From Microbispora sp. H13382 (GTDB taxonomy: Bacteria; Actinomycetota; Actinomycetes; Streptosporangiales; Streptosporangiaceae), in the NCBI RefSeq assembly GCF_014161445.1, contig NZ_JABBXA010000015.1, forward strand, positions 1-64,000: a stretch of DNA of 64,000 bases, in the 5' to 3' direction. The translations under genes and the position numbers were made by a program. This document shows, piece by piece, positions 48,967-63,857 of this stretch. Each line of letters begins with the position of its first letter. The stretch's first letter is position 1. The notes beneath the pieces are model-generated. The model ran no database searches. It saw only the letters and a list, made by a program, of their open reading frames with translations, and was not told where the DNA came from.

Positions 48967-50892
48967 ATGGATTTCAAGATCCTCGGACCGATCGAAGTCC
49001 GTACCTCCCACGGGACGCCGATCCCGCTCGGGCGGCGCAAACAGCGGGTTCTGCTCGCCGCCCTGCTGCTCAACGCCGGCAGGGCAATCCCGAGCAAACG
49101 GATGCTCGACTGGCTGTGGGGCGAACGGGCTCCCGCCGCCGCCGAGTCGAACCTGTACACCTACATCTCCGCGCTGCGCAGGGTGCTCGGCACCCCGTCC
49201 CGCATCGAGGCGGGCTGTAACGGGTACGTGCTGCGGGTCACGCCCGGCGAGATCGACGTGACGTTGTTCGAGGACCTTGCCGAGCAGGGCCTGCGCGCGC
49301 TGTCCGAGGGGCGGCACGACACCGCGCTCGAACGGCTGACCCGGGCCCTCGGCCTGTGGCGCGGCGAGTCCGTCCTGGAGGGGTTGCCCCTGCCCGCACC
49401 GCTGCGCGGCGAGGCGGCGCGCCTGGAGCGGCTGAGGGCCGTCGTCGTGGACGCCTCGCTGGAGGCCCGGCTCGCGCTCGGCCGGCACGGCGAGATGCTC
49501 GCCGATCTGGAGACCCTCACCAGCAGGGACCCGTTGAACGAGCGCCTCCGGGCGCACCTCATGCTGGCCCTGTACCGCTCCGGACGCCGGGCGGACGCGC
49601 TGGCGGCGTACCAGCGCGCGCGGGGGGTGCTCGCCGCCGAGCTCGGCATCGACCCCGGCCCGGACCTGCGGCGCATGCACCAGCGCATCCTCGCGGACGA
49701 CCCCGCCCTGGCGCCGCCCGAGGCGAGCGCCGCCCTCAGATCCCCCGCCCCGGCCGAGCTGCCCATCGACTGCCGGGCCTTCACCGGCAGGACCGCCGAG
49801 ATCGCCCGCCTGCGGGCGGCGCTGACCTCGGCCGGCCCGGGCGCGGTCGCGGTCTCGGCGATCACGGGCGCGGCGGGAGCGGGCAAGTCCGCGCTGGCCG
49901 TACACGTCGCCCACCAGGTCGCGGACCACTTCCCGGACGGGCAGCTCTACGTGGACCTGCACGGCTGCACACCGGACGTCGCACCGCTGAACCCCGCCGA
50001 CGTGCTGGCCCGCCTGCTGCGCTCCCTCGGCGACGACAGGGCCGTCCGGCCCGACGTGGACGAGGTGGCGGCGCGGTTCCGTTCGCTGACCGGCGGCAGG
50101 CACCTGCTGCTCCTGCTCGACAACGCCTGCGACGCCGCGCAGGTTCGCCCGCTGTTGCCGGCGAGTCCCACCTGCCGGGTGCTGATCACGGCCCGCAGGA
50201 CGCTCACCTCGTTGGACGCCGTGTCGCATTTTCCCCTCGGCGTCATGACCGAGGACGAGACCTGCATGCTGCTCGGGCGCCTGATCGGGCCGGAACGCGT
50301 CGCCGCCGACCCGCGGGCGGCGCGCGCCATCGTGCGGCTGTGCGGAGGGCTGCCGCTGGCGGTCCGGATCGCCGCCGCCCGGCTGATCGCCCGGCCGGGC
50401 CTGTCGCTGCGCGCCCTGGCGGACCGGCTCGCGGTGGAGGACCACCGCCTGTCCGAACTCCAGACCGACGACCGGGCCGTGCGGCCGTGCTTCATGACGA
50501 GCTACCGGAGGCTCGATCCCGAGTCCTCCCGCATGTTCCGGCTGCTCAGCCTGGCCGGCGGCTCTGCCGTCAGCGTCGCGGCCGCCGCGGCCCTGGCCGA
50601 CCGCACGGAGCCGCGCACCGCCGACCTGCTGGACCGCCTCGCCGACGCGCACCTTCTCGAGGCGTGTGACCAGGACTGGTACGGCATGCACGACCTGCTC
50701 CGCCTGTTCGCGCGCGAGCGGGCCCGGGAGGAGGAGACCGAGGAGGACCAGGCGCAGGCCGTGCGGCGGTTGCTGCGCAGCATCTGGTCGTCGTCCGGCC
50801 CGCCGGCCCGCGGCGACCGCGAGCGGCTGAGACCGGTGAGTCACCCGGCCCACGGGAAATCCTCCGCGGGAACCCTGAGATCCGACCGATAA
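48967..50892 (+). CDS. AfsR-type SARP regulator with NB-ARC domain
   Basis: 641 aa. N-terminal OmpR-type winged helix (about 1-95, MDFKILGPIEV), BTAD domain (about 98-245) and NB-ARC ATPase domain with Walker A GAAGAGKS (301-308) and LLLLLDNAC. The TPR domain of full AfsR is missing. ATG 48967 begins the SARP fold; the frame is open upstream from GTG 48856. It precedes the aminotransferase operon and is a candidate master regulator of the glycosyltransferase locus. A terminator follows it. Confidence 0.9.
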   Translation: MDFKILGPIEVRTSHGTPIPLGRRKQRVLLAALLLNAGRAIPSKRMLDWLWGERAPAAAESNLYTYISALRRVLGTPSRIEAGCNGYVLRVTPGEIDVTLFEDLAEQGLRALSEGRHDTALERLTRALGLWRGESVLEGLPLPAPLRGEAARLERLRAVVVDASLEARLALGRHGEMLADLETLTSRDPLNERLRAHLMLALYRSGRRADALAAYQRARGVLAAELGIDPGPDLRRMHQRILADDPALAPPEASAALRSPAPAELPIDCRAFTGRTAEIARLRAALTSAGPGAVAVSAITGAAGAGKSALAVHVAHQVADHFPDGQLYVDLHGCTPDVAPLNPADVLARLLRSLGDDRAVRPDVDEVAARFRSLTGGRHLLLLLDNACDAAQVRPLLPASPTCRVLITARRTLTSLDAVSHFPLGVMTEDETCMLLGRLIGPERVAADPRAARAIVRLCGGLPLAVRIAAARLIARPGLSLRALADRLAVEDHRLSELQTDDRAVRPCFMTSYRRLDPESSRMFRLLSLAGGSAVSVAAAAALADRTEPRTADLLDRLADAHLLEACDQDWYGMHDLLRLFARERAREEETEEDQAQAVRRLLRSIWSSSGPPARGDRERLRPVSHPAHGKSSAGTLRSDR

Positions 50893-50898
50893 TTCGCG

Positions 50899-50925
50899 GC
50901 GGCCGATTCCGGCCGCTTTTTCTTT
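50899..50925 (+). terminator. Intrinsic terminator after the SARP-NB-ARC gene
   Basis: GCGGCCG/CGGCCGC stem, 4-nt loop, TTTTTCTTT. It separates this gene from the aminotransferase operon. Confidence 0.85.
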
Positions 50926-51002
50926 CCGTCGTCCCGCTCCTCAACGCCGACCTACACGCGTTCGTATGGGGCGGGGTGTGGTCGCTTTCACCACCATTGA
51001 CC

Positions 51003-51023
51003 ACGTGCAATTTCCTAGCACGT
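51003..51023. promoter_or_regulatory. Inverted repeats in the aminotransferase promoter region
   Basis: ACGTGC (51003-51008) and GCACGT (51018-51023), spacer 9 nt, end 17 nt before the GTG. A second pair, GTGGTC (50978-50983) and GACCAC (50999-51004), overlaps it. No GACAAG repeats are seen here, so control may differ from the 60.4-kb promoter. Confidence 0.4.
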
Positions 51024-51040
51024 AAGGGGATGGGCGTAAC

Positions 51041-52474
51041 GTGTCTGAACTGATCGGCCTCGACGCGTGTGAGAACCTCACCGTGAAACAGGTCCAGGAC
51101 CTGTACAAGAAGTACGTCAGCCGCAGTCAGGTCAATCTCATGACCTCCTTCGGCTTCGGCCGGGAACTCGTCGAGCGCGCGGAGGGCGCCTGGATCTGGA
51201 CCCGCGACGGGCGAAAGGTCCTCGACGTCACCGGCGGGGTCGGGGTGCTCAACCACGGCCACAACCACCCCCGCATCCTGGAGGCGCGGCGCCGGTTCGC
51301 CGAGCGGCGGCGCATGGAGGTGCACAAGGCGTTCTTCTCGCCGTACGTGGCCGCGCTGAGCCACAACATGGCCGAAGTGCTGCCGGGCGACCTGAACATC
51401 TCCTACTTCCCGAACTCGGGCGCGGAGGCCAACGAGGGCGCCGTCAAGTTGGCGTACAAGTACCACGAGGGGCGGCGCAACACGATCCTGCGCTCCGACA
51501 TCAGCTTCCACGGCAAGACCCTCGGCGCGGGGAGCCTGACGGGCTCGGCCGAGAACTCCTTCCGCTTCCCCGGCCTTCCGGGCATCGCCGTGTACCCCTA
51601 CGGCGACGTCGCGGCCGTCCGCGAGCTGATCGAGAACGCCCGAACCCCGGACGGGAAGTGCGACGTCTACGCGATCATGGCCGAGCCGTACAGCGCGTCG
51701 AGCATGCGCTGCTGGTCCGAGGCGGACCTGTACGAGTTGCGACGGCTCTGCGACGCGAACGACATCATGCTCATCTTCGATGAGGTCTACACGGGATGGG
51801 GCAAGACGGGCAGCCTCTTCTACTTCATGCGCTACCCCGACCTGCTGCCCGACATCCTCGTGTACTCCAAGTCGCTCGGCGGCGGGAAGGCGTCGATCTC
51901 CGGATACACCGCGCGTGAGCCGATCTTCCGCAAGGCGTACGACCGCCTCTCCGACGTCATCCTGCACAGCACGACCTACTACGGGTTCGGCGAGGAGACC
52001 GTCACCGCCATCGAGGCGATCAACATCGCCATCGAGGAGGACTACCCCGCCAGGGCGCGGCAGATCGAGCGTGTCCTGGGACCCGGCCTGGAGAACATCG
52101 CCAAGCGCCATCCCGACGTGGTCGGCCGCGTGAGCGGCGTGGGCGCGCTGTGGGGGGTGTTCCTCGGCGGCGGCCCCAGGGTGCTCGACCTGGCCGGCAA
52201 GCTCGCGCCCGGCTTCTCCCACGATCCGCGGTTCCGCACCAAGTTGATCACTCTCTCGGTGATCGCGGACCTCTACCGCGAGCACGGGATCGTCTCCTAC
52301 TACAGCCCGAACGCCGACAATCCCCTCGTCGTCGCGCCGACCCTCGTCATCGAACCCGAAGAGGTCGAATTCTTCCTGGAGAGCCTCGACAAGACGCTGT
52401 CCAAGGGCCTGCCGCGGCTGCTCAGCCGGTTCGTACGAGAGAAGGTGGGGTCGCGGTGGTCCAGCGGGTCGTAG
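51041..52474 (+). CDS. Class III PLP-dependent aminotransferase
   Basis: 477 aa fold-type I enzyme. Visible are NSGAEANEGAVKLAY (PLP phosphate binding), IFDEVYTGWGKTG and the PLP lysine Lys277 (VYSKSLGGGK). GTG start after AAGGGG. The relatives transaminate omega-amino acids, aldehydes or sugar-like ketones, so an amino-sugar or amino-alcohol product for the glycolipid is plausible but unproven. It heads an operon with the epimerase (19-nt overlap), UbiA and small SARP genes. Confidence 0.88.
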   Translation: MSELIGLDACENLTVKQVQDLYKKYVSRSQVNLMTSFGFGRELVERAEGAWIWTRDGRKVLDVTGGVGVLNHGHNHPRILEARRRFAERRRMEVHKAFFSPYVAALSHNMAEVLPGDLNISYFPNSGAEANEGAVKLAYKYHEGRRNTILRSDISFHGKTLGAGSLTGSAENSFRFPGLPGIAVYPYGDVAAVRELIENARTPDGKCDVYAIMAEPYSASSMRCWSEADLYELRRLCDANDIMLIFDEVYTGWGKTGSLFYFMRYPDLLPDILVYSKSLGGGKASISGYTAREPIFRKAYDRLSDVILHSTTYYGFGEETVTAIEAINIAIEEDYPARARQIERVLGPGLENIAKRHPDVVGRVSGVGALWGVFLGGGPRVLDLAGKLAPGFSHDPRFRTKLITLSVIADLYREHGIVSYYSPNADNPLVVAPTLVIEPEEVEFFLESLDKTLSKGLPRLLSRFVREKVGSRWSSGS

Positions 52475-53496
52475 TCACCGGCAGCGCCGGAATGCTCGGC
52501 GGCAACCTGGCCCGCCGGCTCGTCATGGATGGACACGACGTGCTCGGGGTGGACCTGCGCCCGCAGGCCGACCCGCTGCTCGCGGCGCGGCACCGGTGCG
52601 GCGACGTACGCGACCTGGGGCTGTTGCGCGGGGCGATGACCGGGGCGGACGTGGTCGTCCACTGCGCCGGCGCGCTGCCGAGCTACCCCGCCGAGCAGAT
52701 CCACGACCTGATCGTCGGGGGCACCCACACCGTCCTGGAGGCGGCGCGCCTGGCCGGCGTGGAGCGGATGGTCCACATCTCCTCCACGGCCGTGTACGGG
52801 CTGCCGACGCTCGTGCCCACGCCCGAGGATCACCCGCGCGAGCCCGTCGACCCCTACACGAGGGCGAAGGCCGAGGCGGAGGAACTGGCCGAGAAGTACC
52901 GCGCCGGGGGGATGTGCCTGCCCATCCTGCGCCCCAAGACCTTCCTCGGCCCCGGCCGGATGGGCCTGTTCGCGATGCTCTTCGAATGGGCCGAGGAGGG
53001 GCGCAACTTCCCCGTCCTCGGCAGGGGCGACAAGCGCGTGCAGATGTTCGCCGTCGAGGACCTGGTGGACGCCATCGTCGGCGTCCTCGACGCGCCGGCC
53101 GACGTCGCCAACGACACCTACAACCTGGCGGCCGCCGAGTTCGGCACGCTGCGCGAGGACTTCCAGGCGGTGCTCGACGCGGCCGGCCACGGCAGGCGGG
53201 TCGTCTCGGTGCCCGCCGGCCCGGCCCTGGCCGGGCTCCGGCTGCTGGAACGCACCCGGCTGTCCCCGGTGTACGGACGGCTGGTGCGCAAGCTGCTCGC
53301 CGACTCCTACGTCAGCATCGACAAGGCCCGTGAACGGCTCGGTTTCCGTCCGCGGCTGTCCAACCGGGACGCCATCCTCCGTACGTACGCGTGGTGGCGG
53401 GAACAGCGCGCGGCCGGGTCGGCGCGCGGCGCGGGCCAGACGAGCCGCGACGCGTGGCGGCAGGGCGCGCTGGCGCTGGCGAAAGTCTTCTTCTGA
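52456..53496 (+). CDS. NAD(P)-dependent epimerase/dehydratase (SDR)
   Basis: 346 aa. The GTG start follows AAGGTGGGG and overlaps the aminotransferase gene by 19 nt, so translation is coupled. Motifs: VVVTGSAGMLGGNLARRL (NAD binding), STAVYG and YTRAK (catalytic Tyr-x3-Lys), with the Ser/Thr pair before them. An extended-SDR acting on a sugar or lipid-linked sugar is expected. The substrate is unknown. Confidence 0.87.
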   Translation: MVQRVVVTGSAGMLGGNLARRLVMDGHDVLGVDLRPQADPLLAARHRCGDVRDLGLLRGAMTGADVVVHCAGALPSYPAEQIHDLIVGGTHTVLEAARLAGVERMVHISSTAVYGLPTLVPTPEDHPREPVDPYTRAKAEAEELAEKYRAGGMCLPILRPKTFLGPGRMGLFAMLFEWAEEGRNFPVLGRGDKRVQMFAVEDLVDAIVGVLDAPADVANDTYNLAAAEFGTLREDFQAVLDAAGHGRRVVSVPAGPALAGLRLLERTRLSPVYGRLVRKLLADSYVSIDKARERLGFRPRLSNRDAILRTYAWWREQRAAGSARGAGQTSRDAWRQGALALAKVFF

Positions 53497-53511
53497 GCTG
53501 ACGGGGAGAGC

Positions 53512-54495
53512 ATGCGCGTCGTCGAATCGGCAGACCTTCCAGACAGCCCGGAGCGTCCGCAACAGGCGCAGGACCGGGTCGTGCGGACCCGGACCCGCCT
53601 GGTCGCGGACCTCGCCGGCCTGATCCGCCCGTCCCACGCGGCCAAGGCGATCCTCCTCGTCCCCGTGGCGCTCATCGGCGCACCCTCCTACGGCCTGGCC
53701 GAGGTGGCGGGCGTCGTCTCGGCCACGGTGGCCTTCATGGTCGCCTCGGCCGCCGTCTACATCGGCAACGACATCGCCGACCGGCACCGCGACCGGCACC
53801 ATCCCGTCAAGCGCCACCGCCCCATCGCGGCCGGCCGGGTGGGTGTGCTGACCGCGGGCGCCTGCTGCGCCGTCCTGCTGGCGCTGCTCGCCGTGATCGT
53901 CGCCCAGGCCCCGGCGTCGTACTGGCCGGTGCTGGTGTATCTCCTGCTCAACGTCGCCTACAGCCGCTTCCTCAAGCACCTGCCGCTCATCGACGTGGGG
54001 ACGGTGGCGGCCGGCTTCGTCCTGCGCGTCGTGCAGGGGTTCGAGGTGACCGGAGGCCGGGCGCCCGCCTGGCTGCTGATCACGGTGTTCTCGATGTCCC
54101 TGCTGCTGCTGCTCGGCAAGCGCCGCCAGGAGCTGCTGCACGGCGGATCCGTACACCGGCCCGCGCTGCGCGGCTACTCGATGGAGCTGACCAACTGGCT
54201 GCTCCAGATCGCCTCCGTGCTCGCCCTCGTCTCCGGCCTGATGTACCTGCGTGACGAGGGCCCGTTCGGACCCCAGCACGGTCAGACGGCGATGATGCTG
54301 TCCACGCCGTTCGCGCTGTTCGCGCTCTTCCGATATCTGCAGATCCAGCTGATGGACAAGGAGGGCGGTGACCCGGTCCGCATCCTGCTGCGCGACCGCG
54401 TCATGGTCGCGAACTCGATGGTGTGGGCCACGACCCTGGGTGTGACGCTCGTGCTCGTCCACCACCCGTCCCTGGCGGCCGCCCTCTCGTTGTGA
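53512..54495 (+). CDS. UbiA-family polyprenyl-phosphate phosphoribosyltransferase-like protein
   Basis: 327 aa polytopic protein. The first Asp-rich motif, NDIADRHRD starting near residue 86, followed by HHPVKRHRPIAAG, matches decaprenyl-phosphate phosphoribosyltransferase (Rv3806c type), rather than quinone or heme prenyltransferases. It would transfer phosphoribose from PRPP to polyprenyl phosphate, giving a lipid-linked pentose that the epimerase and aminotransferase could then modify. RBS GGGGAGA. The assignment is by motif only. Confidence 0.78.
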   Translation: MRVVESADLPDSPERPQQAQDRVVRTRTRLVADLAGLIRPSHAAKAILLVPVALIGAPSYGLAEVAGVVSATVAFMVASAAVYIGNDIADRHRDRHHPVKRHRPIAAGRVGVLTAGACCAVLLALLAVIVAQAPASYWPVLVYLLLNVAYSRFLKHLPLIDVGTVAAGFVLRVVQGFEVTGGRAPAWLLITVFSMSLLLLLGKRRQELLHGGSVHRPALRGYSMELTNWLLQIASVLALVSGLMYLRDEGPFGPQHGQTAMMLSTPFALFALFRYLQIQLMDKEGGDPVRILLRDRVMVANSMVWATTLGVTLVLVHHPSLAAALSL

Positions 54496-54516
54496 GAGCG
54501 ACATGGAAGGAAGCCG

Positions 54517-55314
54517 ATGGACGTCCGCTTGTTGGGACCGGTCGAGGTGACCCTGGACGGCCGCCGCGTCCCCCTGGGACCACCCCAGCGGCACGCGGTG
54601 CTGGCCGCCCTGGCGGTCGACGCCGACCGCCCCGTGTCGCTCCGTACGATGATCGAGCGGGTCTGGGACGACCCGCCGGACCGGGCGACCGACTCGGTGT
54701 ACGCCCACATAGCCCGGCTGCGGCAGGCGCTGACCGGGACCGGGGTCGCCATCGAGCGCCGCGGCGGCGGGTACGCGCTCGAGGTCGACCCCGAGCGGGT
54801 GGACGCCCATCGGTTCCGCCGGCTGACCAGGCAGGCGCAGAACGCCCGTGACGACGCCGTACGGGCCGCGCTGCTGGCCGAGGCCATGGAGCTGTGGCGC
54901 GGCGCGCCGCTGACCGGCGTTCCGGGCGACTGGGCCGCCCGCATGCGGTACAGCATCGAGCAGCAGTTCGTCGGCGCCCTCGCCACCTGGGCCCAGGCGC
55001 ACCTGCGCCAGGGCCGCCCCGACATGGTGGTCGCCGAGCTCACCCCGCTGGTGCCGCACTACCCGCTCGCGGAGCCCCTCGCGAACATGCTGATGCGCGG
55101 CCTGTGGGCCCTCGGCCGCACCGCGGAGGCGGTGGCCCTGTACGCCCGTCTTCGCGGGTATCTCGCCGACCGCCTGGGCGTCGAGCCGGGGCCCGAGCTG
55201 CGCGCGCTGCACCTGCGGATGCTGCGCGGCGACGCGGAACCGCTCGTGCGGACGGGCCTGCGGGCTCAGCCGCGCGACCTGCTGCTGGCCCAGGTCACCG
55301 AGTCAGTGAGATGA
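54517..55314 (+). CDS. Small SARP-family regulator
   Basis: 265 aa with only the winged helix (about 1-90, MDVRLLGPVEV) and BTAD domain (about 95-240), like pathway-specific SARPs. RBS GGAAGG, 21 nt after the UbiA gene. It is the best candidate activator for the divergent GACAAG-repeat promoters at 60.4 kb. Its 3' end overlaps the convergent EEP gene by 20 nt. Confidence 0.9.
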   Translation: MDVRLLGPVEVTLDGRRVPLGPPQRHAVLAALAVDADRPVSLRTMIERVWDDPPDRATDSVYAHIARLRQALTGTGVAIERRGGGYALEVDPERVDAHRFRRLTRQAQNARDDAVRAALLAEAMELWRGAPLTGVPGDWAARMRYSIEQQFVGALATWAQAHLRQGRPDMVVAELTPLVPHYPLAEPLANMLMRGLWALGRTAEAVALYARLRGYLADRLGVEPGPELRALHLRMLRGDAEPLVRTGLRAQPRDLLLAQVTESVR

Positions 55315-56455
55315 CCAGACGCTGGCCGCTGTGGTCGGACTGGCCCTGCGAGGGGACCAGCCGATACTCGTGTACGGCGACCTCCGGGGTGGTGAACGCC
55401 CAGTCGATCCGCCACAGGGGCCACCGGTCGTCCCAGGTGGCGGGGTAGAGCGAGTCGATCGCGGGGGCGGCGTCGGTCAGCCGCTGCGGCAGCAGGCGCA
55501 GGATGCCCATGGCCGGGGAGGCGTTGAAGTCCCCGGCCAGGAAGGCCGGCAGCGGGTTCGCCCGGACGTCGGCCGCGAGCGCGCGGAGGTTGGCCTTGCG
55601 CGCCTCGTGCTGGGTGCGGTTGAGGCGGCGGGGGTCCAGGCCCGGCGGCGACGAGTCGACGGGCGTGTTGATGTGCGTGTTGTAGAACGAGACGGTCCTG
55701 CCGCCGACGCGCAGGTCCGTGCGCAGCGTCTTCACCGTGTGGAAGCCGGGCCAGCCGGAGCCGGGCGGCACGGGCGTGTCCCGGCCGTCCTCCAGCCACG
55801 GGCGCAGGTCGAGGCCGCGCTGCGCGACGATCGGGAAGCGCGACAGCGTCACCAGCTCGCCCACGGTGGCGACGTGGTAGCCGGGGAACTCGCGGCGCAG
55901 CCTGTCGAGGTCGTTCACCCGGATCGGCCGGGAGTCGGCGCCGAAGTAGACGTACTCCTGCAGCAGGAGCACGTCGGCGTGCTGGGCCCGCAGATAGCGG
56001 TAGAAACCGTCGACGTCCCGCCGGGGCGTGCCGGTGGGCGGGGGCATCGGCTGTCCGCCCACCGCCGGCTGGTCCCAATACCAGGTGTTCCAGGAGAACA
56101 CGCTGATCGCGTCCGGCGGAGCCGGAGTTGCGCGGTGCCACAGCGAGGCGAGGTTGAGCCCACCGGCGCCCCCGCCCAGCACCAGTGACACCAGAGCCAT
56201 CGCGACGGCCGTACGGCGCGCGCGGCGCGCCACCGCGACCGCCGCGAGCAGCACGACGGGAACGGCCGCGAACGCCAGCGGGGGGACGAGCTCGGGGACC
56301 TGCCACCACCAGACCCGGCCCGACAGCGCGCGGTGCAGCCCGGCGAACATCAGCCAGGCCGCCGCCGCCGGCATCACCACCGGGATTCTCCGGCGGGCCC
56401 TCGGCGTGCCCAGGGATCCGCCGGGTCGCGTCGCGACCCGCGTGCCGTCGGTCAT
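55295..56455 (-). CDS. VanJ-like EEP membrane phosphatase
   Basis: 386 aa. About three N-terminal membrane segments (25-105), then an EEP domain with FSWNTWYWDQP, LLLQEYV, AGDFNASPAMG and QSDHSGQ, so the metal and catalytic Asp, Asn and His are kept. By analogy to VanJ it would dephosphorylate polyprenyl pyrophosphate outside the membrane and recycle the carrier. Last gene of the minus-strand GT2-sulfotransferase operon. Confidence 0.85.
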   Translation of the reverse strand: MTDGTRVATRPGGSLGTPRARRRIPVVMPAAAAWLMFAGLHRALSGRVWWWQVPELVPPLAFAAVPVVLLAAVAVARRARRTAVAMALVSLVLGGGAGGLNLASLWHRATPAPPDAISVFSWNTWYWDQPAVGGQPMPPPTGTPRRDVDGFYRYLRAQHADVLLLQEYVYFGADSRPIRVNDLDRLRREFPGYHVATVGELVTLSRFPIVAQRGLDLRPWLEDGRDTPVPPGSGWPGFHTVKTLRTDLRVGGRTVSFYNTHINTPVDSSPPGLDPRRLNRTQHEARKANLRALAADVRANPLPAFLAGDFNASPAMGILRLLPQRLTDAAPAIDSLYPATWDDRWPLWRIDWAFTTPEVAVHEYRLVPSQGQSDHSGQRLVISLTR

Positions 56456-56519
56456 GCGCCGCGCCCCGTCCTGTGTCGATCTGCTTCGGGGCGCGGCGGT
56501 GCGAGCGCGGCGAGCGCCG

Positions 56520-57560
56520 TCACATGGCCTCCCCGAGGGCCGAGGAGCGCATGGGCAGGTCGGGGTCGTAGAGCCGGCGGAACCTCGCCGAGCACAGCCA
56601 GCGCGCGGCCCCGGCCGCCACGCCGGCCGCGATGGTCACGTTCACCAGGAAGTGCACGGCGCCGAAGTAGAGCAGGAACAGCGGGCCGCGCCTGCGCAGC
56701 ACGAAGCGGTACATGCCGAGGTCGGCCGCGACCGACACGGCCAGGGCGAGGGCCGGGAGCGCGGCGCCGGCCGCCCCGAGCGGCACCGCCACCGGTATCG
56801 CGGCCAGCGCCGCCAGCGCGGCGAGGCTGCCGCCGGCCCTGTTGGAGGTCTCGAACCCGCGGGCGAACCGCCGCCGCCGCGCGTACAGCGGCACCCGGGC
56901 ACGGCCACGCCGGTACAGCTTGCGCAGCAGGCCGGGCAACTCGTGGTCGTGGTCGTGCCGCGAGCGGATCGCCGACGTGAGCACCATCCCGTATCGCTGG
57001 GTGAGGCGGTGGCCGTAGTCGACCTCCTCGGTCTCGCGCAGCCGGGTGTTGAACGGCCCGATCTCGTCGAACACGCGGCGGGGCATCGCCATCAGCGCCG
57101 AGAACAGGAACGAGATGGGCCCCTCGGAGCTCGCCGTCCAGTAGTAGTACTGCAGAGCGCGGTATTCCTCGACGAGGCTGTGACGGACCAGCGGCTCGGG
57201 GTCATGGATGCTGCACACCGCCCCCAGCCGCGGATCGGCGGCGAGCATGCCCACGGCGACCTCGACGGCGTCGGGGTAGGCGGCCACGTCGGAGTCCACG
57301 AACACCAGGATTTCACCACGGGCGTGCGCGGCGCCCAGGTTTCGCGCCGCCGCCACCCCCATGTTGTGTTCCGTACGGACGACTCGGACGCCGAGCCGCC
57401 GCGCGACCTCGACCGAGTCGTCGGTGCTGCCGTCGTCCACCACGATCAGCTCGATCGGCCGGTAGGTCTGCGCCTGCATCGCCCGCAGGCACAGCTCCAG
57501 GGAGGCGGCGTAGTTGTAGTTGGGCACGATCACGGACACCAGGGGCGAGTGTTCGGTCAT
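56520..57560 (-). CDS. GT2 glycosyltransferase a
   Basis: 346 aa. GT-A domain with VSVIVPNYNYAASLELCLRAM and VVDDGSTDDS, metal motif DSD (89-91) and the acceptor-side E-T-E-E-V-D-Y region. Two to three membrane segments lie in the last 100 residues, so it is membrane-associated. ATG 57560 is 1 nt before the stop of GT2 b. Paralogous to GT2 b, c and d. Confidence 0.88.
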   Translation of the reverse strand: MTEHSPLVSVIVPNYNYAASLELCLRAMQAQTYRPIELIVVDDGSTDDSVEVARRLGVRVVRTEHNMGVAAARNLGAAHARGEILVFVDSDVAAYPDAVEVAVGMLAADPRLGAVCSIHDPEPLVRHSLVEEYRALQYYYWTASSEGPISFLFSALMAMPRRVFDEIGPFNTRLRETEEVDYGHRLTQRYGMVLTSAIRSRHDHDHELPGLLRKLYRRGRARVPLYARRRRFARGFETSNRAGGSLAALAALAAIPVAVPLGAAGAALPALALAVSVAADLGMYRFVLRRRGPLFLLYFGAVHFLVNVTIAAGVAAGAARWLCSARFRRLYDPDLPMRSSALGEAM

Positions 57561-57561
57561 G

Positions 57562-58593
57562 TCACGCCTCCACCGACGCGGAGCGGGCGGGGATGTCGTA
57601 GGTACGCCGGAACCGGCTGGACAGCGCACACTGGGCGACGCCGGCGAACACCGCCACCGCGACGGTCACGTTCACCAGGAAGTGCACCGCGGCGAAATAG
57701 AGGGTGAACCGGATGCCGGCGTAGCCCAGGACGAAGCGGTACATGCCGAGGTCCGCCGCGATCGACGCGGCCAGCAGCGCGACCGGCGCCATCAGCCAGA
57801 CCGGCCCGAGCAGCATCGGCAGCGGCGCGCAGAGCACGGCGAACAGGGCGGCGAGCGAGCCCCAGCCGCGGCTGCTCTGGGCCGGGCCGCCGTTGAAGTC
57901 CGGGCGGCGCAGGTACAGCGGGATGTGCAGGCGGGCGCGGTGGAAGAACTTCGACAGCACCACGCCGAGCCTGTCGTCGTGGTCGTGCCTGCCCCTGATC
58001 CGGTTGTCCAGCACGATGCGGTACCGCTGCGTGACCCGGTGGCCGTACTCCGCGTTCTCGCTGTGCCGCAGCGCGGGGTTGAGCGGGCCCACCTCGCGGA
58101 AGACCTCCGCCCGCATGGCGAACAGCGCGGAGTAGATCGTGGTGATCTCGCCCTCGTCGCCGGAGATCCAGTAGTGCAGCTGGAGGCTGCGATACCGCTC
58201 CACCCGGCTGTCCGGGATCAGCGGCTCCGGGTCGTAGGTGCCGCACACCACTCCCAGGGTGGGGTCGGAGGTGAGCAGGTCCACCGTGTGCTCGACCACG
58301 TCCTCGGCCAGGGCGAGGTCGGAGTCGAGGAAGAACAGCACGTCCCCGCGCGCGTACTGCACGCCGAGGTTGCGCGCCGCCGGAGCGCCGATGTTGATCT
58401 CGGTCTCCACGACCCGCACCCCGTGCCGGTGCGCGATCTCCACCGAGTCGTCGGTGCTGCGGTCGTCGACGACGATCACTTCGATGTGCGGATAGGTCTG
58501 CCGCTCCAGGGCGCTCAGGCACAGGTCGAGCGTGCGGGCGTAGTTGTAGTTCGGCACGATGACCGAGACCAGCGGGCGTACCTGCGACGTCAT
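57562..58593 (-). CDS. GT2 glycosyltransferase b
   Basis: 343 aa, same architecture as GT2 a: LVSVIVPNYNYARTLDLCLSAL, VDDRSTDDS, FLDSDLA, and C-terminal hydrophobic segments. ATG 58593 overlaps the sulfotransferase stop by 4 nt. Conserved RYRIVLDNRIRGRHDHD motif, shared with GT2 a, suggests related acceptors. Confidence 0.88.
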   Translation of the reverse strand: MTSQVRPLVSVIVPNYNYARTLDLCLSALERQTYPHIEVIVVDDRSTDDSVEIAHRHGVRVVETEINIGAPAARNLGVQYARGDVLFFLDSDLALAEDVVEHTVDLLTSDPTLGVVCGTYDPEPLIPDSRVERYRSLQLHYWISGDEGEITTIYSALFAMRAEVFREVGPLNPALRHSENAEYGHRVTQRYRIVLDNRIRGRHDHDDRLGVVLSKFFHRARLHIPLYLRRPDFNGGPAQSSRGWGSLAALFAVLCAPLPMLLGPVWLMAPVALLAASIAADLGMYRFVLGYAGIRFTLYFAAVHFLVNVTVAVAVFAGVAQCALSSRFRRTYDIPARSASVEA

Positions 58594-59291
58594 CGATGTC
58601 CTCCTCGCCTCGTACGGCGCAGCAGCAACGGCAGGGGCCGGCTGAGGCCGCTCCTGGTGAAGTCCGTGGCGCCGTTCACCCGGGGGAACGGCTCGTCCGG
58701 AACCGGGACCCCGAGGAACTCGCACAGTGGGTTCCAGCCGTCGGCGGCGTCGAAGACGAGCAGCCGCTCGGCCGGGATGGCGGCGATCACCCTGGCCGCG
58801 TGCTCCTCGAACAGCCGGATGGCCCGTTCGGGTTCGCGGTCGGCGGGTGTCGCGAAGGTCCGCGCGTCGAGGGTCGTGTCGACCATCCTGACGAACGCGG
58901 CGAGGTCGGTGCGGAGCAGCGACGACAGCAGGACGGCGGCCCGGCCCGGCAGCGAATTTATGCGCCGCCGCTGAGCGAACAGCGTCCGCCGCATGCTCTC
59001 CAGCCAGCGGTCCGGGTCGCGTGTGGTGAGGATGACCTTGGCCTTCGGGTAGTACTCGGCGAGCTGCCGCCAGTAGATCGAGGTCGGGCCGTCCACGCAC
59101 GACTCGTAGCCGACGAGCAGATGGTCCCAGTCCACCTCGCGGGCCGTGGCGGCGGCGAGCCAGCTTCTGATCTGCCAGGGGTGGGTGAACACGTCCACCA
59201 TGTGGTGGCACGGCCCGAAGCCGAGCCGTTCCAGCGCCGTCTTGAGGGAGAGCGTTCCCGTCCGGCCGAAGCCGGTTCCGATGACCTGCAT
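58590..59291 (-). CDS. Sulfotransferase-like protein
   Basis: 233 aa. The N-terminal P-loop-like GFGRTGTLSLKTAL binds the 5'-phosphosulfate of PAPS in this family; the motif TRDPDRWLESMRR would bind its 3'-phosphate. It would sulfate a hydroxyl of the glycolipid built by its neighbours, which is inference. No PAPS synthesis genes are in the window. Between GT2 c (6-nt gap) and GT2 b (ATGA overlap). Confidence 0.82.
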   Translation of the reverse strand: MQVIGTGFGRTGTLSLKTALERLGFGPCHHMVDVFTHPWQIRSWLAAATAREVDWDHLLVGYESCVDGPTSIYWRQLAEYYPKAKVILTTRDPDRWLESMRRTLFAQRRRINSLPGRAAVLLSSLLRTDLAAFVRMVDTTLDARTFATPADREPERAIRLFEEHAARVIAAIPAERLLVFDAADGWNPLCEFLGVPVPDEPFPRVNGATDFTRSGLSRPLPLLLRRTRRGGHR

Positions 59292-59297
59292 CGCCGG

Positions 59298-60305
59298 TCA
59301 GTCCTGGGCCGCGAGCATCTGGGCGGGCTTCTCCAGGCGGGACAGCGCGAGACGCTGCAGGACGCCCACCGCTCCGCCGAGGGCGCCGGTGAAGGTGACA
59401 GCGAGGTGCACGCCGGAGAAGTAGACGCCGAACGCGGCCCCCCGCCGGGCGAAGGCGAAGCGGTGGGTGCCGGCGTCCAGGGCCGCGGCGGCGACGACGA
59501 GCGCGGGTGACACGAGTGCCCCGGCCCGGCCCGCCACCATGGGCAGGGCGAGCGCCGGGACCGCGGCGAGCAGCAGGACGCCGCCGACCGCGCGGGGCAC
59601 CGAGTCACCGGGCGTCTCGCCCTGCTGCCAGTCCAGGGCGCTCAGGCGGGCGCGGCGGAACACCTTGCGCAGGATCGTCCGTACGGTCGGGTCGTGGTCC
59701 TTCCTGCCGCGGATCGCGTCGCTCAGCTTCACCTGGTGGGACCGCGTCACCCGGATGCGGTAGTCGGAGGAGACGGTCTCGCGCAGGCGGGGGTCGAAGG
59801 GACCGACCTCGGCGAACACCTTGGCCGGGACGGCGAGCACGGACGCGTGCAGCTCCAGGGTGGGCCGGTGGGCGGGCATCCACCAGCGGTGCATCTGCAC
59901 GGCGCGATACTGGGAGGCCAGGCTCTGGGACACCAGCGACTCGGGCCGCAGGACGCCGCCCAGCGCGCCGATCTCCGGGTGGGACTCCAGTATCCGCACC
60001 GCGTTCTCCACGGCGTCGGGGTCGAGCGCGATGTCGGCGTCGAGGAAGAACAGGATGTCTCCGGTGGCGTGCTCGGCGCCGAGGTTGCGCGCGGGGGTCG
60101 GGCCGCCGTTGACGTGGGTGCGCACCACCGCGGCGCCCTTCGCCTCGGCCACCCGTGCCGCGTCCTCGGTGCCGCAGTCGTCCACCACGATGACCTCGAT
60201 GTGCGGATAGGTCTGCTCCTTCACCGCGTCGAGGCAGAGTCGCAGTACGTCGGACCGGTTGTAGCTGGGGATGATCACCGAGACGAGCGGGTGCTCCTGA
60301 CTCAT
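59298..60305 (-). CDS. GT2 glycosyltransferase c
   Basis: 335 aa. VSVIIPSYNRSDVLRLCLDAV, VDDCGTEDA, FLDADIA, and C-terminal hydrophobic segments. First gene of the minus operon, with its promoter in the GACAAG-repeat region. It differs from a and b in the acceptor part. Confidence 0.87.
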   Translation of the reverse strand: MSQEHPLVSVIIPSYNRSDVLRLCLDAVKEQTYPHIEVIVVDDCGTEDAARVAEAKGAAVVRTHVNGGPTPARNLGAEHATGDILFFLDADIALDPDAVENAVRILESHPEIGALGGVLRPESLVSQSLASQYRAVQMHRWWMPAHRPTLELHASVLAVPAKVFAEVGPFDPRLRETVSSDYRIRVTRSHQVKLSDAIRGRKDHDPTVRTILRKVFRRARLSALDWQQGETPGDSVPRAVGGVLLLAAVPALALPMVAGRAGALVSPALVVAAAALDAGTHRFAFARRGAAFGVYFSGVHLAVTFTGALGGAVGVLQRLALSRLEKPAQMLAAQD

Positions 60306-60386
60306 GATGTGCTCCAGAGGCCGGAGGTCGTCGGTTTCGAAACGTGCATGTCAGACCTCGTGTTCGGCCCACGCTAGGCACGGCGG

Positions 60387-60461
60387 CTTGTCCCAATCTT
60401 GTCGCGTACGTGCGGGCCGGCCGCGCCTCCCGCCGTCGGCGGCCGACAAGGATGCGACAAG
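60387..60461. promoter_or_regulatory. Mirror-image SARP-type operators of the divergent promoters
   Basis: Plus-strand CTTGTC at 60387-60392 and 60398-60403 (minus-strand GACAAG repeats) and GACAAG at 60445-60450 and 60456-60461 form two pairs of direct repeats, each with an 11-bp period. On each side exactly 10 nt separate the last GACAAG from a TANNNT hexamer: TAGCGT (minus strand, 60376-60371) and TACGTT (60472-60477). Heptameric repeats with 4-bp spacing close to a -10 are the known layout of SARP sites. Confidence 0.75.
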
Positions 60462-60513
60462 GAGCGCTCAGTACGTTCGACGCCGGTCCACCCACCGAGG
60501 ATGGTGTCGATTG

Positions 60514-61725
60514 ATGAGCGATCGGGACGCCCTGGTCGAGGAGCAGTCCATCACCGCCCCGCCCGAGCCGGCGGCGAGCTGGGCGGCAAGCGTCCGCCGT
60601 TTCGTGCGTCCCCGGCGTCGCTGGTGCCTGGGCACCAGGCTGGTCGTGACCGCCACGGTGGCGTGGCTGCTCTTCGTGGTCTGCCACCTGCTGGCGAGCG
60701 GGCGGACGTCGCTGTGGGCGCCGCTCGAGCTGATCCCGCCGCTGCTGTTCCTGGCGGTCCCCGCGTTGCTGATGGTCGTGGCGCCACTGGCCCGGCCGGT
60801 CCGCTGGCGGATCATGTCGCTGCTGGTGGTCGCCGCGGTGCTCGGCGCCGGGCGGAGCGGGGTCAACTACGCCGCCCTCTGGTACACCCCGCCGCCCGCG
60901 CGCCCCGGAGCCATCACCGTCGTCGCCTGGAACACCGAGTTCTGGGACCAGGACCTGCGCGGCTCCGACCGCACCGGGTTCTCACCCGGGTTCTACGACT
61001 ACCTCCACAAGCTGGACGCCGACGTCTACCTGCTGACGGAATACCTGCATATGGACGTGCGCCCGGCGCAGCGCTGGACGGGTGACCTGGCGCTACGCAT
61101 CGACAAGCTGGCGGAGCTGCGCCGCGAGTTCCCCGGCTACCACGTCGCGGTCTCCGGCGAGCAGATCACGCTCTCGCGGTTCCCCATCACCGGGCACCGC
61201 GGCCTCGACATGCGCCCGTGGTTGCCGGCCGACCAGAAGGAGATCCCCGAAGTCCTCCGGCACTGGCCGGAGGGGTACACGGTCGAGACGCTGCGCACCG
61301 ACATCGACGTGAACGGCACCGTCGTCTCCTTCTACGACGCGCAGGTCTCCCAGCCCCCGCTCGAATGGCGGCTGTACGACGCCGAGTCCCGCGACGTCAA
61401 CCGGAGCAAGACTCTCCGGCGTGAGGCGAGCTACCACGCCATCAGCGCGGACATCGCGGCCAACCCCAACCCCGTGGTGCTCGCCGGCGACCTGAACACC
61501 TCCCCGGCCATGGGCATCCGCCGCCTGCTCCCCGAAGGGCTGGTCGACTGGACGCCCGCGCTCTCGTCCCTCTACCCGGCGACCTACCTTGCGGGGACCG
61601 CCGAGCTGTGGCGGATCGACTGGCTCTACACCACCCCCGACGTGACGGTGCACGACTACGAGCTGCCCGGCGCCGAGGGGCAGTCCGATCACCGGGCCCA
61701 GCGCATGCTCATGTCGGTGTCCTGA
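60514..61725 (+). CDS. VanJ-like EEP membrane phosphatase
   Basis: 403 aa. About three membrane segments (45-120), EEP domain with VVAWNTEFWDQD, LLTEYLHM, AGDLNTSPAMG (Asp326) and QSDHRAQ (His393). Aligns throughout with the protein at 55295 but has an Asp-Gln pair where that one has Asn-His (YDAQVS/YNTHIN), so the two may differ in activity. ATG 60514; no strong ribosome site is seen. First gene of the plus operon. Confidence 0.85.
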   Translation: MSDRDALVEEQSITAPPEPAASWAASVRRFVRPRRRWCLGTRLVVTATVAWLLFVVCHLLASGRTSLWAPLELIPPLLFLAVPALLMVVAPLARPVRWRIMSLLVVAAVLGAGRSGVNYAALWYTPPPARPGAITVVAWNTEFWDQDLRGSDRTGFSPGFYDYLHKLDADVYLLTEYLHMDVRPAQRWTGDLALRIDKLAELRREFPGYHVAVSGEQITLSRFPITGHRGLDMRPWLPADQKEIPEVLRHWPEGYTVETLRTDIDVNGTVVSFYDAQVSQPPLEWRLYDAESRDVNRSKTLRREASYHAISADIAANPNPVVLAGDLNTSPAMGIRRLLPEGLVDWTPALSSLYPATYLAGTAELWRIDWLYTTPDVTVHDYELPGAEGQSDHRAQRMLMSVS

Positions 61726-61782
61726 CCGGCGCGGGCCCCGCAGACGACCCTGCCGACGACCTGACCGACGAGAGGAACGGAC

Positions 61783-62865
61783 ATGCCTGACGAGCCGATG
61801 TGGCGTGATGACGTCGCGGTCATCGTGCCGAACTACAACAAGAGGAAGACCCTGCGCGCCTGCCTGGAGTCGGTGTACGCGCAGACCTACCGCCCCGCCG
61901 AGGTCATCGTCGTCGACGACGTCAGCACCGACGGCTCGCTGGAGATAGCGCGGGACTTCCCGTGCACGATCGTCGAGTCGCCGTACAACGGGGGGCCCGC
62001 GGTGGCCCGCAACCTCGGGGTGGCGAGGAGCTCGGCACCGCTGCTGTTCTTCGTCGACTCCGACACGGCCCTCGCGCCGGACGCGATCCGCAACGCGGTC
62101 CAGGCGTACCGGAACACTCCGGACTGCGGCATGGTGCAGGGCATCTACGACGCCGATCCGCTGTACGACGACGGCCCGGTCGAGCGCTACCGGGTGCTGT
62201 GCGAGCACTACGAGCGCAGCCAGACCACGGCGACGTTCCTGTCCTGCACGCTGATCCCGCGCCATGTCTTCGAGGAGGCGGGACGGCTCGACGAGCGGCT
62301 GCGCGACGGCGAGGACTTCGAGTTCGGCACGCGTGTCCCGGCCCGCTACCGGCTGGTGGTGAGCACCTCGGTGGTGACGAAGGCCGACGACGAGGACCGG
62401 TTCTGGGGATGCCTCGTGGAGCGGTTCGTCCGGTCCACCACGCTACCGGTGATCATGGTGCGCGCCCGGCGGCTGCGCGACGAGGGGAAGGTGGGCTTCC
62501 AGCTCAACATGATCGGAACGGGCCAGCACAAACGACGCAAGCCCCCCAGCATCTCCTCGGCGTCCGCCACGGTCACCTTCCTCACCCTGCCGCTCGCGCT
62601 GGTCAGCCCCTGGATGCTGGCCGTGCCGGCGGCGACGCTCGGGGTGTTCCTGTGGAAGAACCGCAGATTCATCGGGTTCGCCCGCCGTCACGGGGGCGCC
62701 CGCTTCGCCTCGTGGGTCGCCTGGATGCAGCTCTGCTTCCACACCGCGTTCTTCCTCGGCGCCTGCGTGGGGCTCGTACGCGTCGCCTACGAACTGGGCC
62801 GCAGACAGGGAGAGCCGGTCAGGACGGGCCTGTCCCCGGTGCCGTCGAGCGGTGCGCCCGAGTGA
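61783..62865 (+). CDS. GT2 glycosyltransferase d
   Basis: 360 aa. VAVIVPNYNKRKTLRACLESV, VVDDVSTDGS, FVDSDTA, then DGEDFEFGTRV and hydrophobic segments. RBS GAGAGGAA. Most divergent of the four GT2s. Its stop overlaps the start of the next gene (GTGA). Confidence 0.88.
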   Translation: MPDEPMWRDDVAVIVPNYNKRKTLRACLESVYAQTYRPAEVIVVDDVSTDGSLEIARDFPCTIVESPYNGGPAVARNLGVARSSAPLLFFVDSDTALAPDAIRNAVQAYRNTPDCGMVQGIYDADPLYDDGPVERYRVLCEHYERSQTTATFLSCTLIPRHVFEEAGRLDERLRDGEDFEFGTRVPARYRLVVSTSVVTKADDEDRFWGCLVERFVRSTTLPVIMVRARRLRDEGKVGFQLNMIGTGQHKRRKPPSISSASATVTFLTLPLALVSPWMLAVPAATLGVFLWKNRRFIGFARRHGGARFASWVAWMQLCFHTAFFLGACVGLVRVAYELGRRQGEPVRTGLSPVPSSGAPE

Positions 62866-63857
62866 GGGCGATCAGGCTCCCCCGGCTGCCGCGCCCGGTC
62901 CGGCGGGCGCTGGTGGCCGCCTTCGTCCTCGTCGCCGTGGGCGCGATCGCGCTGACACTGAGCCGGCTGGACTGGGGCGTGGTGGCCGTCCTGTTCGCCC
63001 GGCGCGACGCCGGGCAGATCGGTCTCCTGCTGGGCGGCGCGCTGCTGGCGAGCATGGCGGGACTGTCGTTCGGGTTCCTCGCCTGGCGTGTCGTGCTGCT
63101 GGAGAGCGGCCCCCCGGTCAGCGAGCCGCGGGTGGTGCGGATCTTCTTCGTCGGCTTCCTGTCCAAGTACGTCCCCGGGCGGGTGCCCGGCATGATCGCG
63201 ATCACCAAGGTGGCCACGGCCAACGGCGTCGGCTTCGGCCGGCTGATGAGCACGGCCGCGCTCGTCATGAGCCTGGTGCTGCTGAGCGGGTTCACGGTCG
63301 GGCTGCTCGCGGGCGTGCAGATGCTGGGCGCCCGGGCGGCGTGGCTCGCGGGCGCCGCCGTGCTGATCGTGCTCGTCCTGGTGCGCCCGCAGATCGTCAA
63401 CCGGGGCTCGGCGCTGCTGCTGCGACTGCTGCGCCGTCCCTCGGCGGCCCAGGCCGTCTCGGTCCGGGGAGTGCGGCTCGCGGTCGCCTGGCAGAGTCTG
63501 TCCTGGGTGGTCACCGGGCTGCACCTGTGGCCCCTGGCCATCGCGGTGGGCGCGCCCCCGTCGCGCTCGCTCGCCCTGTGCGTCGGCGCGTTCACGCTCG
63601 CCACGACGATCGGCATCGCCAGCGTGTTCATCCCCGACGGCATCGGCGTCCGCGAGGCGGTGCTGGCGGCCGCGCTGGCCCTGGTGCTCCCCGCCCCCGC
63701 CGCCGCGGTGGTGGCCCTGGCGAGCCGCCTGGTCTCCACCGTCAGCGAGGTCGTCCTCGGCGCGGCCGCCCTCACGGCCGCCGAATATTTCATCCGCCGC
63801 AAGCCGCGGAGTTTCTCTGGACTCCAAACTATTGACGGCGAATCCGCTGGTGTGTGA
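62862..63857 (+). CDS. LPG-synthase-TM/AglD-type flippase-like membrane protein
   Basis: 331 aa, about eight membrane segments, with SKYVPGRVPGMIAI and IPDGIGVREAVL, which are typical of the LPG_synthase_TM family. Members with only this domain are linked to translocation or lipid glycosylation. GTG 62862 overlaps the GT2 d stop. It would export the lipid-linked glycan, which is inference. Confidence 0.85.
   Translation: MRAIRLPRLPRPVRRALVAAFVLVAVGAIALTLSRLDWGVVAVLFARRDAGQIGLLLGGALLASMAGLSFGFLAWRVVLLESGPPVSEPRVVRIFFVGFLSKYVPGRVPGMIAITKVATANGVGFGRLMSTAALVMSLVLLSGFTVGLLAGVQMLGARAAWLAGAAVLIVLVLVRPQIVNRGSALLLRLLRRPSAAQAVSVRGVRLAVAWQSLSWVVTGLHLWPLAIAVGAPPSRSLALCVGAFTLATTIGIASVFIPDGIGVREAVLAAALALVLPAPAAAVVALASRLVSTVSEVVLGAAALTAAEYFIRRKPRSFSGLQTIDGESAGV

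Follow-up and report, generated by a model that had tools for sequence, protein, structure and literature searches.

The left end of a contig (C7; NZ_JABBXA010000015.1, positions 1 to 64,000, forward strand) in the 8.7-Mb genome of Microbispora sp. H13382 (G000), a stretch of 64,000 nucleotides hereafter called the window, carries at 48967-63857 a gene cluster that we read, with a probability of about 0.5, as a specialised-metabolite cluster controlled by Streptomyces antibiotic regulatory proteins (SARPs). It would build a glycan on polyprenyl phosphate by way of an aminopentose formed by an aminotransferase (AMT) and an epimerase (EPI), followed by extension through glycosyltransferases (GTs), flipping, and the action of an endonuclease/exonuclease/phosphatase-type (EEP) phosphoesterase on the outside. 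The aminopentose, the sugar chain and the product are those that we infer from the genes. The best-supported step is the first, which is assigned to a protein of the UbiA fold.

Comparison of this UbiA protein with PDB sequences returned only 8j8j and 8j8k, the decaprenyl-phosphate phosphoribosyltransferase. The alignment with 8j8j (E 3.3e-28) extends over residues 20-313, i.e. the whole UbiA fold, with 28% identity to Rv3806c; the score against NCBIfam NF008977 is 184.9 bits, below the cut-off of 234. The residues of Rv3806c that bind phosphoribosyl pyrophosphate (PRPP), Mg and phosphates have been assigned their roles (PMC10994848). R22, K28, Y70, N73, D77, D81, K87, R90, Y138 and K143 are retained in the window protein as R39, K45, Y83, N86, D90, D94, K100, R103, Y150 and K155, respectively. 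Each of these PRPP-site residues is found in 16 of 16 homologs, or in 14-15 where the protein start is missing or lysine is replaced by arginine (K87 is K or R), whereas four further UbiA proteins from this genome do not retain the set. We place the protein firmly in the PPPRS/DPPR synthase family and predict the corresponding activity. An earlier sequence-only reading of this DNA had proposed a lipid-linked pentose as the starting point, and the retained Rv3806c PRPP site speaks for it.

That reading had also listed an aminotransferase, an epimerase, the UbiA protein, four GT2s, a sulfotransferase, two EEP proteins and a flippase-like protein, and Pfam recovered every one of these gene types. 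Its two SARPs are both present, but SARP1 (48967-50892) lies to the left of the locus start it had given, 51041. The genes are as follows:

48967..50892, plus strand: SARP1, a large regulator with BTAD (Pfam E 4.6e-44) and NB-ARC (E 3e-9) domains
51041..52474, plus strand: AMT, a class-III pyridoxal phosphate-dependent aminotransferase (Pfam E 1.7e-60)
52456..53496, plus strand: EPI, a GalE-type extended short-chain dehydrogenase/reductase (SDR) (Pfam E 1e-36)
53512..54495, plus strand: predicted UbiA-fold polyprenyl-phosphate phosphoribosyltransferase, PPPRS/DPPR-synthase-like (Pfam E 1.6e-16; PDB 8j8j E 3.3e-28)
54517..55314, plus strand: SARP2, a small regulator (Pfam BTAD E 1.2e-31)
55295..56455, minus strand: EEP1, a membrane-anchored EEP phosphoesterase with complete catalytic residues (Pfam E 5e-17)
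56520..57560, minus strand: GT2a, with a GT-A catalytic domain and C-terminal membrane helices (Pfam E 2.8e-33)
57562..58593, minus strand: GT2b, a membrane GT2 (NCBIfam GT2 matches)
58590..59291, minus strand: sulfotransferase, Sulfotransfer_4 (Pfam E 1e-64)
59298..60305, minus strand: GT2c, a membrane GT2 (Pfam E 2.8e-30)
60514..61725, plus strand: EEP2, a membrane-anchored EEP protein with its catalytic His changed to Gln (Pfam E 1.6e-9)
61783..62865, plus strand: GT2d, a membrane GT2 (Pfam E 7.8e-29)
62862..63857, plus strand: LPG_synthase_TM (LPG_TM) protein, predicted to flip the lipid-linked glycan (Pfam E 2.3e-15)

Overlapping or near-abutting gene ends indicate three operons, where two or three tight ones had been suggested. 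The first, on the plus strand, runs AMT-EPI-UbiA-SARP2, with the EPI start 19 nucleotides within AMT and subsequent gaps of 15 and 21 nucleotides. The second, on the minus strand, comprises GT2c, the sulfotransferase, GT2b, GT2a and EEP1; the sulfotransferase and GT2b overlap by 4 nucleotides, and GT2b and GT2a abut. EEP2, GT2d and LPG_TM form the third, on the plus strand, with a 4-nucleotide overlap between the last two. SARP1 stands upstream of AMT in syntenic clusters as well. NCBIfam holds no specific family for AMT, EPI, EEP, the sulfotransferase or the flippase.

A search for the gene order in other genomes, which the sequence-only reading had suggested, found it identical in other Microbispora and in Thermocatellispora, Nonomuraea and Sphaerisporangium, at ~67-98% identity; the same range applies to Streptosporangium clusters, whose right half is rearranged. 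This recurrence across genera argues that the arrangement is not a matter of chance. Scanning the genome collection with AMT yielded 34 loci, from Microbispora, Nonomuraea, Sphaerisporangium, Streptosporangium, Thermocatellispora, Micromonospora, Actinoplanes, Dactylosporangium and Amycolatopsis, and further genome searches enlarged the set to 57 loci, in which genes were assigned by home-made profiles. AMT and EPI were each detected in 54 of these, upholding the proposed aminotransferase/epimerase core, EEP in 53 and UbiA in 51. Less constant are GT2 (46), SARP (37), methyltransferase (9) and sulfotransferase (8, or 9 by tblastn); most loci without GT2 carry GT4 instead.

The occurrence of the cluster is patchy. 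AMT and UbiA are carried by 4 of 15 Microbispora genomes, and EPI exceeds 570 bits in five of 395 class-sample genomes, the window included, each time within such a cluster. This pattern resembles that of specialised metabolism. Across 297 genomes of the family of Amycolatopsis genome G441, all 17 EPI matches sit in such clusters. In genome searches EPI thus marks these clusters specifically, which makes the product a practical target. The distances of AMT, EPI and UbiA co-vary across 49 loci (r 0.70-0.81; Mantel p 0.001), evidence of a common history, not of a function.

In the flippase position one gene can replace another. LPG_TM occupies it in 43 loci (41 of 57 at the profile threshold) and a protein with 9-11 predicted transmembrane segments in six, never both, and untruncated clusters always carry one or the other. 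The second protein, which has no Pfam, PDB or NCBIfam match and was placed solely by profile-profile comparison, aligns over its full length with Polysacc_synt (Wzx/MOP) flippases of the same order (hhalign 97.7%, E 1.6e-12), compared with 0.1% for the LPG, UbiA and GT2 families used as controls. The loci that carry it are either Thermobispora-like or from the Amycolatopsis family, and the replacement thus covers two lineages. Such complementarity points to flipping of the product as the role of LPG_TM, which very probably fills the flippase slot, as predicted from this exchange. The earlier suggestion of a flipping step thus gains from LPG_TM being interchangeable with a Wzx-like protein.

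Catalytic Lys277 of AMT is invariant in the homolog alignment; the closest solved relatives are YgjG and PigE, and SapH (7qzj) appears among the structural matches. SapH, a class-III transaminase, aminates a ribosyl aldehyde at the 5' position (PMC10127198). In EPI the TGxxGxxG and YxxxK motifs are intact, and its model (pLDDT, the predicted local distance difference test score, 82) matches UDP-galactose 4-epimerases. A precedent for an SDR working on a lipid-linked pentose is ORF13, which epimerises polyprenyl-P-ribose (PMC11127046). Three clusters, L138-L140, lack AMT and keep EPI, and in L139 and L140 UbiA is present too. This fits an EPI acting on lipid-linked ribose with AMT as an add-on, and we infer that AMT would act on the lipid-linked sugar. 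An aldo/keto reductase was considered as a substitute for AMT and rejected, since such reductases occur in AMT-free clusters but also alongside AMT, giving no clean swap. Elsewhere (L036:5791-14438), the neighbours of a 59% identical AMT are a GMC oxidoreductase, a flavin amine oxidase, a GT2, an MFS transporter and a GH35 protein; this is a different pathway, possibly one for an amino sugar.

The four GT2s are indeed paralogs, with 26-55% identity, GT2b and GT2a being at 55%. Motifs DD, DSD and EE are intact in GT2a, and the corresponding sets are DD, DSD, EN in GT2b and DD, DSD, ED in GT2d. GT2c has lost the Glu of the catalytic base (Glu to Val; motif VS), a substitution kept in nearly all of 14 close homologs examined. 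Elongation by membrane GTs, part of the earlier outline, is supported as a probable step; one to four GT2/GT4 genes are nearly always present. The proposed sulfation fared less evenly: the sulfotransferase is present, and in some clusters lies between GT2b and GT2c, but it is missing from the syntenic clusters of Microbispora H11081, three Nonomuraea and Sphaerisporangium album. Judged by this gene content, sulfation is a variable or optional trait of the cluster family.

Of the two EEP proteins, EEP1 has complete catalytic residues (N-E-H-D-N-D-D-H). The His to Gln change of EEP2 recurs in 15 of 21 EEP2-like proteins, the window included, and this second copy belongs to Streptosporangiaceae-type clusters and L053; clusters with a complete EEP gene call each hold at least one copy with a (nearly) full catalytic set. 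The divergent neighbours GT2c and EEP2 each lack one catalytic residue, a state conserved in ~14-15 genomes. They may be pseudo-enzymes with a retained role, and the active enzymes may consequently be fewer than the genes. EEP2 has three N-terminal membrane helices, with the N-terminus placed inside by positive charges and the domain predicted outside, and EEP1 has two membrane segments above threshold and one weaker. The architecture of N-terminal membrane helices plus EEP domain presumably resembles that of membrane phosphatases of the type of VanJ, an undecaprenyl-PP phosphatase. In L138, a cluster lacking AMT and UbiA, a membrane-anchored calcineurin-like phosphoesterase (L138:10580-11833) takes the place of EEP. 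Retention of EEP, or of such a stand-in, points to a predicted need of the pathway for an outer-face phosphoesterase. Its role may be the carrier recycling of the earlier outline, glycan release, which is equally possible, or removal of the ribose 5-phosphate. The end product, likewise, may be a released oligosaccharide and not the glycolipid proposed earlier.

Taken as a pathway, these genes suggest the following sequence. UbiA would join PRPP and polyprenyl phosphate to polyprenyl-P-ribose-5-P, the well-supported step. The 5-phosphate would then be removed by some further enzyme, oxidation by EPI would give the ribose a keto or aldehyde group, and amination by AMT would then yield polyprenyl-P-aminopentose; in AMT-free clusters EPI would merely epimerise the lipid-linked ribose. 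On the cytoplasmic side, membrane GT2s (GT4s in some relatives) would extend the sugar from nucleotide sugars, and the sulfotransferase may decorate the glycan. LPG_TM would flip the lipid-linked glycan, as the gene replacement supports, and the outward EEP would probably cleave a phosphodiester or pyrophosphate, freeing the glycan and/or regenerating the carrier.

Several observations weigh against this pathway. The cluster UbiA does not retain Q135 and K208 of Rv3806c (N147 and P217 in the window, where Y157 is F169), and no dedicated 5-phosphatase of the PAP2 or HAD type was seen in the clusters. The predicted topology of the EEP proteins derives from hydropathy and charge only. AMT is closest to putrescine aminotransferase and PigE, not to sugar aminotransferases, and L062, L064 and L136 carry AMT and EPI without UbiA. 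The last two points also favour the idea that AMT and EPI make a separate amino block, either an amino-lipid or a nucleotide-linked amino sugar, for attachment to a ribose-containing product; the likeness of AMT to aldehyde/putrescine transaminases and its 59% identical relative beside the GMC oxidoreductase and flavin amine oxidase of L036 fit this as well. We nevertheless consider it unlikely, since EPI and UbiA persist without AMT in L139 and L140, the three genes are adjacent in almost all other clusters, and modification of polyprenyl-P-ribose by an SDR has precedent (PMC11127046). The two Amycolatopsis genomes concerned carry a separate DPPR synthase beside GLF, PAP2 and GlfT2 genes; that Amycolatopsis clusters lack UbiA since their host makes DPPR was rejected as weak, as most other clusters of the G441 family have their own UbiA.

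A different possibility is that the cluster supplies nothing more than a lipid-linked (amino)pentose donor, with the GT2s building other parts and a GT-C enzyme encoded elsewhere transferring the pentose to a surface glycan. Three-component pentofuranose systems consist of PPPRS, a MATE flippase and GT136 (PMC11127046), and UbiA, an SDR epimerase and a flippase together make up their anatomy. The Citrobacter youngae O1/O2 systems share with the cluster a UbiA-type polyprenyl phosphoribose synthase and a dedicated flippase, and O2 also an SDR epimerase, there acting on the lipid-linked pentose (PMC11127046). The missing GT-C could be encoded elsewhere, and a GT87 does lie beside three Micromonosporaceae clusters. 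However, apart from this GT87 no GT-C was recognised, either in the window cluster or among the genes examined in ~50 loci, GT2/GT4 genes are nearly always present in one to four copies, and the Wzx-like replacement suggests an oligosaccharide cargo, not a monosaccharide; a donor-only function therefore seems doubtful to us. The Microbispora cluster further differs from these systems in its aminotransferase, several GT2s, EEPs, optional sulfotransferase and SARPs, and it has no recognised PRP phosphatase domain; known relatives use GT-C enzymes and have no aminotransferase. Their flippases are of MATE/SMR type (ArnE-like), whereas the cluster family has LPG_TM or, in six loci, a Wzx/MOP-like protein. 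Given the other flippase type and the lack of a recognised GT-C, the cluster, by its predicted functions, falls outside the definition of a three-component pentofuranose system in PMC11127046. An ordinary cell-envelope pathway, such as supply of decaprenyl-phospho-arabinose (DPA) for the wall, has in its favour a first enzyme of the same family, with the PRPP site retained, as in the mycobacterial pathway (Rv3806c, Rv3807c, DprE1/DprE2). We regard it as very improbable: the cluster has two SARPs and is missing from 11 of 15 Microbispora and 390 of 395 class genomes, and the genome holds a separate set elsewhere (L107:8185-12221; contig C44, ~321-325 kb), in which genes for a PorA-like protein, another DPPR-synthase-like UbiA (40% identical to Rv3806c), a DprE1-like flavoprotein and a DprE2-like SDR are neighbours. 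With DprE1/DprE2, PAP2 phosphatase and arabinosyltransferases absent from it and this DPA-like set elsewhere, the cluster is, as its gene content indicates, not the DPA pathway. To our knowledge, arabinan is not usually ascribed to Microbispora.

The preferred reading, a SARP-controlled cluster assembling a glycan on polyprenyl phosphate, also has partial parallels. The Arn pathway (Und-P-4-amino-4-deoxy-L-arabinose) ends in a flipped polyprenyl-P-linked aminopentose. Amination takes place there at the UDP-sugar stage, whereas here it would occur on the lipid and by a class-III enzyme; the Arn flippase is mentioned in PMC11127046. The SapB/SapH pair of pseudouridimycin (PMC10127198) shares the class-III transaminase aminating an oxidised ribose, as proposed here, but works with a flavin oxidase on a free nucleoside, while here the transaminase has an NAD-type SDR as its partner and probably a lipid-linked substrate. 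As for Wzx/Wzy assembly, Pfam revealed no polymerase/ligase or polyprenyl-PP initiating transferase among the window genes 48967-63857, and a Wzx-like flippase occurs only in six relatives, the window having LPG_TM in that position.

The sequence-only reading had not recognised the gene set, and we likewise found no known product for it; an open-licence literature search found no paper describing this cluster. The earlier gene inventory is confirmed, and most of its pathway outline finds support. To that outline the analysis adds the test of the PRPP site, the extent and patchy occurrence of the family, the exchange of flippases, the variants without AMT, and EEP2 and GT2c as conserved degenerate copies. 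Tentatively, the family could represent a new class of natural products, in which an amino-oligosaccharide, secreted or anchored to lipid, is assembled on polyprenyl phosphate, the first sugar, an aminopentose, arises by on-lipid transamination of polyprenyl-P-ribose, and GTs, flippase and outside phosphoesterase are exchanged from species to species, so that the product varies. Cell-wall arabinan and O-antigen side chains are known settings of polyprenyl-phospho-pentose chemistry. Its pairing with an aminotransferase in a patchy, SARP-controlled family would carry this chemistry into specialised metabolism and on to on-lipid aminopentoses, and the LPG_TM/Wzx-like exchange speaks for flipping as the role of a membrane family whose function is uncertain.

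Among the surroundings, neighbouring proteins of 560 and 523 residues at 450-2132 and 2757-4328 of the window have no Pfam match. A GH10 xylanase and a cellulase upstream and an RTX-type protein downstream were left out of the cluster, as they are not conserved with it. The latter, ~6 kb to the right of the cluster (L079:8192-17485), adjoins a 745-residue protein without a Pfam match and a MatE transporter, and contains 14 RTX calcium-binding repeat stretches in its 3097 residues.

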